Origin: an uncultured Pseudomonadales bacterium
Lineage (GTDB): Bacteria > Pseudomonadota > Gammaproteobacteria > Pseudomonadales > Azotimanducaceae
Reading direction: 5' to 3'
Assembly: GCA_958296195.1 (NCBI GenBank)
Contig: OY282455.1
Span: forward strand, 2,790,001-2,854,000
Length of the DNA stretch: 64,000 nt
A program made the translations under genes and the position numbers. Positions within the stretch are counted from its first letter, which is position 1, and each line of letters begins with the position of its first letter. Shown one piece after another: positions 1-48,641 of this stretch. Under the pieces are notes generated by a model. The model ran no database searches. It was not told the DNA's origin and saw nothing but the letters and a program-made list of their open reading frames with translations.

Positions 1-1757
1 TTGTAGCCGAAGATGATCCGCCCGACCAAGTGCCCGGCGGAGCGGTCCGCGTAGTTGCCGTGGCGGTCGGGTGGCGGCAGGGCGTCGCCCCAAGGAAAGC
101 GCAGCAGCGTCGTCACGCCGTCTTGGGTGCGGGCCGCCCAAGCCCACTCCGCCTCCGTCGGCAGCCGATAGCCGGTGGCCTGGGGGTTGAAGCCGGTCGC
201 CTTGCCGAACTCCTCAGTGTAGAACAGGGGCATGTTTTCTTGGCGGGACAGCCAGTTGCAGTAGAGCGCGGCGTCGTGCCAGCTTAGGGCTACGGCGGGC
301 TGGTCGTCCTTGTTCAGGGGCTGGTCCTCGTAGGATCCGGAGTCGTGGCCGCTGGCGAAGGCCCTGAATTCGGCGTTGGTGACCTCCTTGACGGCGAGGT
401 AGAACAGCCGTTGCAGCGCCACTTCGCGCAGGGTTTCGTTGGCCCGTCGGCCGGCTTCCCTTCTTGAGGCGCCTAGGGTGATGGGGCTGGGCTGCATCAA
501 CCTCAACACCTGGCCTTGGGTGGTGGCGATTTCCGGGCGCAGCGCCGCCAGCCGGGCCTCCTCCAGAGTCAGCAGGCTGACCTGCACCTCCAAGGTAAGC
601 CCTGGCCGCGGGATGACTTTGGTGCGGTGGTCAGCGTAGCCCGGTGCGGTGATTTTCAAGTCGTGGGGGCGGGCCGGCAGTTTCAAGATTTGGTTGGCCG
701 GCCCGGCCGGACGTCCGTCCACATGCAGTTCGGCCGTGGCTGGGGAGGCTTGCACCGAAACCGACCCGACCAGTTGCTTGAGTTCCAGGGACAGCGTTCG
801 CGTTTCGCCGGCTCGAAGGTTTAGGCTCGCCTCCCGTGCCGTAAAGCCGGCTTTGAAGGCCCGTACGCGATAGGCGCGGCCGGAGCGTAGTTCCGCCCGC
901 AGCGGTGACTCGCCCTGATATTGGCCGTTGATGGTCACGCCGGCGCCGGCCGGTCGAGTGCTTACGCTCAACCGGGCGTCGGCCTGCCGGAGCTTGATGA
1001 GGGCGGGTGTACGCCGCTCTTGGGCGGCAACCAAAATGCGCTGGCGACGGGTCTGATGGCCGTCGAGCAGCAGGGCCACCTCGTGCTCCCCAGCTAGGAT
1101 CTCCACCGTCGCCGGGGTGCGTCGGCCAGTGTCCTCCCCATCGACCAGAATGCGGGCGCCGGGCGGCTCGGTGACGTAATGTACTGCGCCCCAATTGGGC
1201 GCCAATTCGACCCTGACCCGCTCCGGCTGCTGTCGTCCGGCAACTGTCACGGACAGCTCTTTTGCTTGATGGCGCGGATGGGTGAAGCGCAAGCGCCGCT
1301 TCCCAGCCGGCACGGGAATGTCCGCCAAGGGGGTTGTGCCGATGGCCTTGCCGGCGATGCTCACCGAGGCGCCGGTGGGCGTGGAGTGGAAGCTCAGCAG
1401 GCCAGGCAGTGGAGTGAACTCGAAGGCGAAGGCTTGGTTCCGTTCGGGGCCGACCTGCAGCATTTCGTCCAGCGGATGGTGGCCGGCGAGTTCGGCCCGC
1501 ACCCGATAGGCTTGGCGCAGCAGCAGGTGAACGCCGCCGAAGGCGAGGGCGGGGCCACCGGACAGCTCCACCTGTTCGGCCGGCGGCGAAAACGCCAACT
1601 CCACCGAGCGGGCGGTGAACAAGAAGATCAGCAAGGCGGCGGCGGCCAGCGCGACCGCCCCTAGGGCAGCCGGCAACGGCGCGATCCTGAAGCGCCTTGG
1701 CGCCGCTGCGTCCGGCGGCCGGTAGCGGACGGGTTCGATCACCGGACCGTCGGTCAT
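1..1757 (-). CDS. PEGA-repeat membrane protein with C-terminal formylglycine-generating-enzyme (SUMF1-like) domain, 3' end outside window
   Basis: The protein begins at 1757 and is still open at position 1, so at least 585 residues are encoded and the C-terminus is missing. A cytoplasmic stretch of about 25 residues precedes one membrane helix (about residues 25-42, rich in Ala, Leu and Phe). Then come at least four PEGA-type beta repeats, recognised by recurring P-G-A/A-x-V-x-I/V-x-G-x-x-x-G-x-(S/T)-P motifs. From about residue 440 the sequence follows the FGE/sulfatase-modifying-factor fold (EVTNAEFRAF, VALSWHDAALYCNWLS, GYRLPTEAEWAWAAR, FPWGD). Many bacterial FGE-fold proteins do not oxidise cysteine, and the active-site part lies outside the window, so catalysis is unproven. 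The start overlaps the stop of the upstream gene (ATGA at 1757-1754), which supports translational coupling. Likely periplasmic or outer-face display domain. Confidence 0.85.
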   Translation of the reverse strand, partial: MTDGPVIEPVRYRPPDAAAPRRFRIAPLPAALGAVALAAAALLIFLFTARSVELAFSPPAEQVELSGGPALAFGGVHLLLRQAYRVRAELAGHHPLDEMLQVGPERNQAFAFEFTPLPGLLSFHSTPTGASVSIAGKAIGTTPLADIPVPAGKRRLRFTHPRHQAKELSVTVAGRQQPERVRVELAPNWGAVHYVTEPPGARILVDGEDTGRRTPATVEILAGEHEVALLLDGHQTRRQRILVAAQERRTPALIKLRQADARLSVSTRPAGAGVTINGQYQGESPLRAELRSGRAYRVRAFKAGFTAREASLNLRAGETRTLSLELKQLVGSVSVQASPATAELHVDGRPAGPANQILKLPARPHDLKITAPGYADHRTKVIPRPGLTLEVQVSLLTLEEARLAALRPEIATTQGQVLRLMQPSPITLGASRREAGRRANETLREVALQRLFYLAVKEVTNAEFRAFASGHDSGSYEDQPLNKDDQPAVALSWHDAALYCNWLSRQENMPLFYTEEFGKATGFNPQATGYRLPTEAEWAWAARTQDGVTTLLRFPWGDALPPPDRHGNYADRSAGHLVGRIIFGY

Positions 1758-48485: not shown

Positions 48486-48520
48486 AAAAAAAAGCCCCGC
48501 ACTTTCCTTGGCGGGGCCTT
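48486..48520 (-). terminator. attenuator terminator before DAHP synthase
   Basis: On the minus strand GCCCCGC (48517-48511) and GCGGGGC (48500-48494) form a 7-bp GC stem, extendable by G-U and A-U pairs, followed at once by eight T residues (48493-48486). It is a strong intrinsic terminator located 45 bases before the aroG start codon, where it would block expression unless antitermination occurs. Confidence 0.85.
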
Positions 48521-48528
48521 GCCTTGAA

Positions 48529-48600
48529 GGAAGGCGCCCGCCGTGGCCGCCTTCCGTTCATTGCATCGACAAAAGGGGCTACGTCACCGTGGCGCGGCCA
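48529..48600 (-). promoter_or_regulatory. mutually exclusive leader hairpins of the aroG attenuator
   Basis: Three complementary segments lie between the leader codons and the terminator. Segment 1, TGGCCGC (48600-48594), overlaps the Phe14-Gly15-Arg16 codons. It is perfectly complementary to GCGGCCA (48550-48544) in segment 2. Segment 2 also contains GGAAGGCG (48555-48548), perfectly complementary to CGCCTTCC (48536-48529). The two pairings share 48548-48550, so they exclude each other. A stalled ribosome on the aromatic codons would decide between them. Confidence 0.65.
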
Positions 48601-48641
48601 AAGTAACGGGTGCGGAAAAACCAATTGTTGCCGATGCTCAT
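48579..48641 (-). CDS. aromatic leader peptide of the DAHP synthase attenuator (20 residues)
   Basis: A 20-codon frame from ATG 48641 to TAG 48579 encodes a peptide with Trp7-Phe8-Phe9 and Tyr13-Phe14: five aromatic residues in eight positions. Placed about 60 bases before an intrinsic terminator and 138 bases before aroG, it has the form of an attenuation leader peptide (compare pheL and trpL). Low charged Trp-, Phe- or Tyr-tRNA would stall the ribosome on these codons. The ribosome site is weak. No database homologue can be claimed from memory. Confidence 0.75.
   Translation of the reverse strand: MSIGNNWFFRTRYFGRATVT

Follow-up and report, generated by a model that had tools for sequence, protein, structure and literature searches.

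A predicted attenuator with Trp, Phe and Tyr codons in front of a DAHP synthase gene in Azotimanducaceae

An aroG-type DAHP synthase gene of an uncultured Pseudomonadales bacterium is preceded by a leader that very probably acts as a ribosome-mediated transcription attenuator, tuning the enzyme to the charging of Trp, Phe and Tyr tRNAs. DAHP synthase is the first, committed enzyme for the synthesis of all three aromatic amino acids. The leader lies on the minus strand of a 64,000-nucleotide stretch of DNA, the whole of which we call the window. It holds what characterises the attenuator class: an aromatic-rich short frame, an intrinsic terminator before the gene and a mutually exclusive antiterminator. 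The choice between structures by ribosome position has the right sign in silico, in the cut transcript only. The reading is built on observed features: the frame, the helices, their conservation, the partner-specific fit between genera and, in prediction, the sign of the switch.

Results

Leader frame, terminator and gene

The DAHP synthase gene (48440-47373, minus strand, 355 aa) matches profile NF009395 at 516.5 bits, against a cut-off of 343. Upstream of it on the same strand, positions 48641-48579 form a 20-codon frame, MSIGNNWFFRTRYFGRATVT, closed by a stop codon, which contains Trp-Phe-Phe and Tyr-Phe (aromatic codons 7, 8, 9, 13 and 14). The original prediction, made from the letters of the window, had described this frame, and also a GC-rich terminator with eight T before aroG; we find both, the terminator as arms 48517-48511 and 48500-48494 followed by the U8 tract at 48493-48486. 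The order on the minus strand is leader frame, U8 terminator and DAHP synthase gene. The 261-nt stretch 48700-48440 folds with a z-score of -3.3.

Rfam, T-box models included, gave no match at gathering score anywhere in the whole window, and the best score against the leader itself was 22.1 bits, for a family whose gathering score is 50. A strict single-sequence pattern scan of the window called neither a promoter nor a terminator; it passed over this terminator because its loop limit of 8 excludes the 10-nt loop.

The leader is also crossed, in a different reading frame, by a 160-aa frame on the minus strand (48885-48403, start MEDRYLLERIELNPQVMAGKAVIKGTRLTVEQILNMLAYGETVEKITTEYGG). Its N-terminal part is like what we take to be a DUF433-type antitoxin and the remainder presumably resembles unrelated read-on: it is probably a gene remnant.

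Five alternating segments

We lettered the segments as in the his operon; five of them, B to F, alternate. Segment B, the sensor (48579-48568), consists of the stop codon's last base and the next 11 bases, and pairs with segment C (48559-48546) over 12 bp with two bulges. Part of C (48555-48548) can instead form 8 bp with 48536-48529 in segment D (48542-48528). As a whole, D can capture segment E (48524-48510), whose core, 48517-48511, is the 5′ arm of the terminator; E otherwise pairs through this core with segment F, the 3′ arm GCGGGGC (48500-48494). The antiterminator D:E is a 14-bp helix (48542-48528/48524-48510) with two bulges and an energy of -23.0 kcal/mol, next to -12.5 for B:C and -13.4 for each of the C:D and E:F cores. 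Two mutually exclusive sets result: B:C with D:E (read-through) and C:D with E:F (termination). The original prediction had left unclear how its alternative pairing would affect the terminator; the answer is that D:E takes the terminator's 5′ arm.

Further upstream, segment A (48637-48628, codons 2-5) has a 10-bp pairing option with 48572-48563 when the ribosome is absent, formed with a computed probability of 0.89 in the cut transcript and 0.98 in the full leader.

Conservation in the family

At an orthologue criterion of E ≤ 1e-115, 144 of 206 family genomes were positive. We examined 146 upstream regions and dropped two (L030 and L147, upstream too short), leaving 144. The detector called a leader when a frame had at least 3 aromatic residues in its last 16 and a terminator lay 15-75 nt downstream. 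It found one in 110 of the 144 regions, of which two (L205 and L216) are doubtful, compared with 4 of 432 dinucleotide-shuffled upstreams and 1 of 73 out-of-family window-type aroG genes. The combination of leader frame and terminator is far above chance, and the claim that an attenuator with Trp, Phe and Tyr codons precedes the DAHP synthase gene gains from this conservation. The upstreams of other DAHP synthase paralogues in the genus gave no attenuator (0 of 10).

Loss of the peptide frame in close relatives is mostly not seen: 7 of the 8 orthologues in the window's genus keep a similar frame, the eighth (L007) being without a detectable leader, and one of the nine genomes of the genus has no window-type gene. 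Across the family, no leader was detected in 34 of 144 upstreams; by genus, none was found in g11, g14 (0/2), g18 and g33 (0/4), and occurrence is patchy in g22 (13/28), g23 and g25. In L006, an insertion bounded by inverted repeats separates the leader terminator from aroG.

Trp, Tyr and Phe all occur within the last 20 residues in 97 of the 110 peptides. Each is concentrated in the last 16 residues relative to the preceding ones: 7.7% versus 0.3% for W, 11.8% versus 1.0% for Y and 13.9% versus 4.4% for F.

Partner-specific fit and covariation

For the tests on 106 leaders, L205, L216, L174 and L236 were left out (doubtful or same genome). Swapping partners between 28 genera was meant to distinguish helices from shared composition. 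The own partner fitted better than the swapped one in 26 genera for B:C, 27 for C:D, 26 for D:E and all 28 for E:F, in a genus-level test that treats genera as independent, so that kinship among them remains in the figures. The swap was not significant for A:C, A:D, B:D, B:E, C:E and A:E in the same 28 genera.

Alignment A1 comprises 92 leaders, 16 of 108 having been excluded (near-duplicates, sequences containing N, L174 and L236). At its fixed columns, C:D and E:F are paired in 93.7% of cells and B:C and D:E in 71.4%, with B:C alone at only 62%. Both sets exceed all 500 shuffles in percentage paired, two-sided cells and covariation score, and B:C+D:E exceeds all slid versions of itself on the same three measures. 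C:D+E:F also beats every slid version of itself and, further pair types apart (1/500), exceeds the shuffles on all measures. RNAalifold recovers C:D and E:F by itself, and 11 of 15 pairs show two-sided changes. For B:C+D:E, two-sided change affects 10 pairs (shuffle mean 10.4) and further pair types number 26 (shuffle mean 29.9), neither being above the shuffles. Alignment with orthologues had been proposed as a check on the original prediction: the aromatic codons are widely kept and two-sided changes appear in C:D and E:F; for B:C+D:E, two-sided cells exceed the shuffles and the number of two-sided pairs does not.

A candidate helix A:B found no comparative support as a conserved element. 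Its own partner was preferred in 17 of 28 genera (p 0.19), and a scan of positions gave nothing convincing, the smallest p being 0.048 among the windows tried (rows with energies of about +707 were disregarded as artefacts). Compared with synonymous recoding, it stood out in 16 of 28 genera (p 0.19), and 8.7% of the recodings of the window's leader were equally good.

Ribosome position and the choice of structure

We removed the ribosome-covered part and folded the rest, with the transcript cut directly upstream of the terminator's 3′ arm. With the ribosome at the stop codon, C:D forms in the window's leader with probability 0.99. Stalls at W7, F8, F9, Y13 and F14 reduce C:D to 0.01 or less, while B:C reaches 0.74-0.96 and D:E 0.985-0.997. 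In silico, B is hidden by a ribosome standing at the stop codon and stays accessible during a stall at any of the five aromatic codons; with ribosome edges assumed at 7 to 15 nt, the change from one structure to the other occurs between codon 18 and the stop codon.

The same calculation was run over genera with at most two leaders per genus and one mid-cluster aromatic codon; it covered 27 of 28 genera, one being removed by skipping leaders in which fewer than 8 nt separate the stop codon from the start of the automatic hairpin. C:D is more probable at the stop than in the stall by +0.54, a difference that drops to +0.07 when B alone is shuffled; in 25 of 27 genera the real value exceeds the B-shuffled one. 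Twenty-six genera have a difference above 0.05 and none has one below -0.05. Leader by leader, with the ribosome at the first aromatic codon, 71 of 106 switch as expected and 14 the opposite way. The automatic assignment of the C:D hairpin is wrong in L156, one of these 14, and in L160.

In the full leader at equilibrium, E:F in the stalled states has a probability of 0.49-0.99 in the window and 0.94 on average in the family. Because this equilibrium favours the terminator or is even, D:E must win kinetically. Moreover, C:D is predicted to form first in the window's stalls (0.95-1.0 at transcript ends 48523-48514) and must be displaced once E emerges at 48511. Timely formation and persistence of the antiterminator are the usual requirement in attenuators. 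The stall at Tyr-13 looks the weakest of those in the window.

A predicted leaderless start

The best promoter-like pair in the window's leader is a -35-like TTGCCT (48677-48672) and a -10-like TACCAT (48655-48650), 8 nt upstream of the leader ATG, in the layout TTGCCT-16-TACCAT-8-ATG; its position relative to the AUG is kept in the family. Promoter scoring by hexamer weights took in 105 of the 106 leaders, in 27 genera. In 87 of the 105, the best sigma-70-like -10 ends 6-10 nt upstream of the in-frame start, most often at 7 nt, and for control starts in other frames a -10 lies at 5-10 nt in 3 of 168. At least half of the leaders agree on its position in 25 of 27 genera. A Shine-Dalgarno-like motif precedes 4 of 105 leader starts versus 74 of 106 aroG starts. 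From this layout we infer that the leader mRNA is leaderless, with a predicted transcription start at about 48643-48641.

Spread in the order

Model R1 is a covariance model built from the 92 leaders. In the window's genome it matches this leader alone at E ≤ 1, among the 150 of 2358 candidates scored: no wider regulon appeared there. Across the order, R1 tallies 161 of 293 genomes, a figure that we do not use as a count of leaders because the weaker matches often lie away from DAHP synthase. We fetched 30 loci of the order, 25 of them outside the family; 20 of these 25 are followed, at about 35-340 nt, by the start of a DAHP synthase, and most of the 20 leaders encode a peptide such as GYFFYGYWFSQRRA or FFWWFGYGFYFSQSSGRP. 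Among 18 named genomes scanned, eight showed a leader before DAHP synthase: Pseudomonas straminea, Stutzerimonas stutzeri, Halomonas alkalisoli, Billgrantia pellis, a Marinobacter, an Oceanobacter and two in-family metagenome bins. The other ten, including Pseudomonas taiwanensis, Phytobacter, Pantoea and Photobacterium, had none before DAHP synthase in the loci fetched, which are part of their matches. Beyond the order, 274 genomes of the class yielded 12 loci at E ≤ 1e-5, none adjoining a DAHP synthase.

Fifteen leader-bearing DAHP synthases from outside the family form a separate clade (support 100/99). Nine leader-bearing enzymes of the family group with the window-type orthologues of other families, without a clade of their own, and no leader was detected at 72 of 73 such out-of-family orthologues. 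From these two placements it follows that the paralogue downstream of the switch differs between families. A single origin with a change of gene or losses and two origins are both compatible with the placements, which cannot tell them apart.

Outside the order, locus L303 carries at 1501-1641 (oriented) a leader-like peptide ending GGLWVGYLYALT and a similar terminator; the gene that follows, with start MLGYNRVVVAEHERGIEW, is not a DAHP synthase.

Link to Rfam P15

Four of the aromatic leaders of DAHP synthase match Rfam family P15 (RF00627): those of Pseudomonas straminea (L286, 1513-1634, minus strand, 105.7 bits), Stutzerimonas stutzeri (L277, 1513-1631, minus strand, 104.7 bits) and two genomes of the same order (L257 and L262, both 1515-1635, plus strand, 103 and 105.2 bits). 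There was no match in the other 17 of 21 loci scanned, nor in the window's leader, whose relationship with P15 rests on R1 finding P15 leaders, with E-values of 3.8e-8 for L257, 8.9e-5 for L277 and only 0.0077 for L286. Like the window's, the P15 leaders are aromatic and stand before a DAHP synthase. They differ in that the enzymes of L257 and L277 belong to another clade, and in L257 an SD-like GGAG precedes the start.

P15 is named among the P. aeruginosa sRNAs of Livny et al. (PMC2375449), and Rfam classes RF00627 as a gene, not as a leader. Judging by sequence and position, we read P15 as the putative terminated leader of a DAHP synthase gene; its annotation probably needs to change from sRNA gene to cis-regulatory leader. 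Our literature search, largely of papers open without subscription, found no mention of RF00627.

By eye, a second short Tyr-rich frame lies between the P15 terminator and DAHP synthase in L257 (from 1705, plus strand) and L286 (from 1469, minus strand). These frames begin MNTTYYRYYRNSDWRF and MTAYATYQTYYRYSWRF, respectively, and are possibly tandem second leader peptides.

Discussion

Proposed switch

Transcription would most likely start at the leader AUG or within about 2 nt of it, and ribosomes would load without a Shine-Dalgarno sequence. When all aromatic tRNAs are charged, the ribosome would advance to the final codons or the stop, covering B; C:D could then pair, leaving E for F, and RNA polymerase would halt at U8. 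If any aromatic tRNA is scarce, the ribosome would wait at codon 7, 8, 9, 13 or 14. With B free, B:C would pair and release D, which may capture E before F is synthesised, and the polymerase would continue into aroG. Stalling, kinetic trapping by D:E and read-through in the cell are the inferred steps. In the window, a fourth state is predicted in which, without any ribosome, A would occupy part of B and transcription would terminate; comparison among the 28 genera gave this state no support.

Alternative readings

The original prediction had placed the switch elsewhere: codons 14-16 would pair with 48550-48544 as 1:2, and a stall at aromatic codons would shift 1:2 to 2:3. Both of its pairings exist. 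The first is a perfect 7-bp match of 48600-48594 with 48550-48544 (-11.7 kcal/mol), for which wobble-compatible forms can be seen by eye, uncounted, in other members of the genus; the second is the perfect 8-bp match of 48555-48548 with 48536-48529, and 48550-48548 are common to the two. In the cut transcript, the 7-bp pairing reaches 0.57 at the F9 stall and about 0 in the ensembles of the other states; on the full leader it stays at or below 0.13. The 5′ arm of this pairing, which lies in the frame, is not family-wide: the conserved partner of C is segment B (48579-48568), which begins with the last base of the stop codon. The 2:3 of the original prediction is C:D, an anti-antiterminator and not the antiterminator. 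In that scheme, forming 2:3 upon a stall would free the terminator, which has the wrong sign. We consider that arrangement very unlikely. A full his-type attenuator of six segments, in which A:B causes termination when the leader is untranslated, deserves more credit, although we still think it rather doubtful. The strong pairing of A without a ribosome (10 bp, P 0.89-0.98) speaks for it, and in the Rfam model for P15, which represents the Pseudomonas relatives, aromatic codons are paired with the stop codon and the nucleotides that follow; against it are the genus-level results for A:B, namely the swap fit (17/28, p 0.19), the scan (smallest p 0.048) and the lack of signal relative to synonymous recoding (16/28, p 0.19).

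Could the RNA instead be an independent small RNA acting in trans and not an attenuator, as the Rfam type of P15 ('Gene') has it? The terminated attenuator RNA rnTrpL of Sinorhizobium meliloti can act in trans (PMC7298713). However, the aromatic peptide, the alternating helices and the location before DAHP synthase are widely kept, and any action in trans would add to attenuation and not replace it, which makes this account highly improbable. Least credible of all is an ordinary terminator of an upstream transcript next to a chance frame: CCCCG..CGGGG terminators are common and many weaker R1 matches lie away from DAHP synthase, but conservation already contradicts it (110/144 versus 4/432 shuffled upstreams), together with the enrichment of W, Y and F and the partner-specific fit of the alternative helices. 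The five-segment attenuator sensed at the stop codon is the reading we retain. Beyond the window, we moderately favour a single ancient attenuator type across the order that reads all three aromatic amino acids, would be leaderless with a stop-codon sensor in the window's family, includes P15 as a member and precedes different paralogues in different families.

Significance

If the reading is true, a single leader responsive to Trp, Phe and Tyr would be one common control point in the family, and related leaders in Pseudomonas, Halomonas and Marinobacter would extend it. For the orphan Rfam sRNA P15 it suggests a testable function, and for these gammaproteobacteria it predicts an attenuator that is leaderless.

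Comparison with known attenuators

The trp, pheA and his operons of E. coli and Salmonella are controlled by a leader peptide, the position of the ribosome on it and a mutually exclusive terminator and antiterminator. In the trp/phe type, the antiterminator is 2:3, the terminator is 3:4 and a stalled ribosome masks segment 1. The window's leader does not fit this four-segment scheme: its five alternating segments, B to F, allow one pair more, and the finishing ribosome masks B, unlike the stalled ribosome that masks segment 1. The his attenuator shows the same alternation of neighbouring segments as the window's leader and adds segment A, which is without comparative support in the window's family.

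In Sinorhizobium meliloti, the 5′ end of the trpL attenuator RNA (rnTrpL) coincides with the AUG of the leader peptide (PMC7298713). That case differs from ours in concerning the trp operon only and an alphaproteobacterium, and its 5′ end is known whereas ours is predicted.

Closer in target is aroR-aroF of Corynebacterium glutamicum, where a leader peptide with Phe-Tyr-Phe precedes a DAHP synthase gene and ribosome stalling raises transcription, Phe limitation reportedly acting and Tyr limitation not (PMC4046766 and PMC11802643). It shares with the window's leader the aromatic codons in a leader peptide before DAHP synthase; it differs in that no Trp codons are named for it and in its phylum, and we liken the two by arrangement. 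The uORFC-13-1 motif of Acholeplasma, upstream of aroF, combines a predicted frame containing Phe codon(s) with a terminator (PMC8632094). Unlike the window's leader, it has an RBS within the motif and only Phe is named; its 24 representatives belong to a different phylum. Shewanella aroF is tabled as attenuated on the basis of a 1980 study in E. coli. With DAHP synthase attenuators already reported or predicted elsewhere, the kind itself is known; for this order, our search, mainly of literature outside subscription, showed none. Within the reach of our searches, the new elements are a leader that would read all three amino acids, a switch of five segments with its sensor at the stop codon, a leaderless start (predicted), the leader's conservation within the family and its connection with P15.
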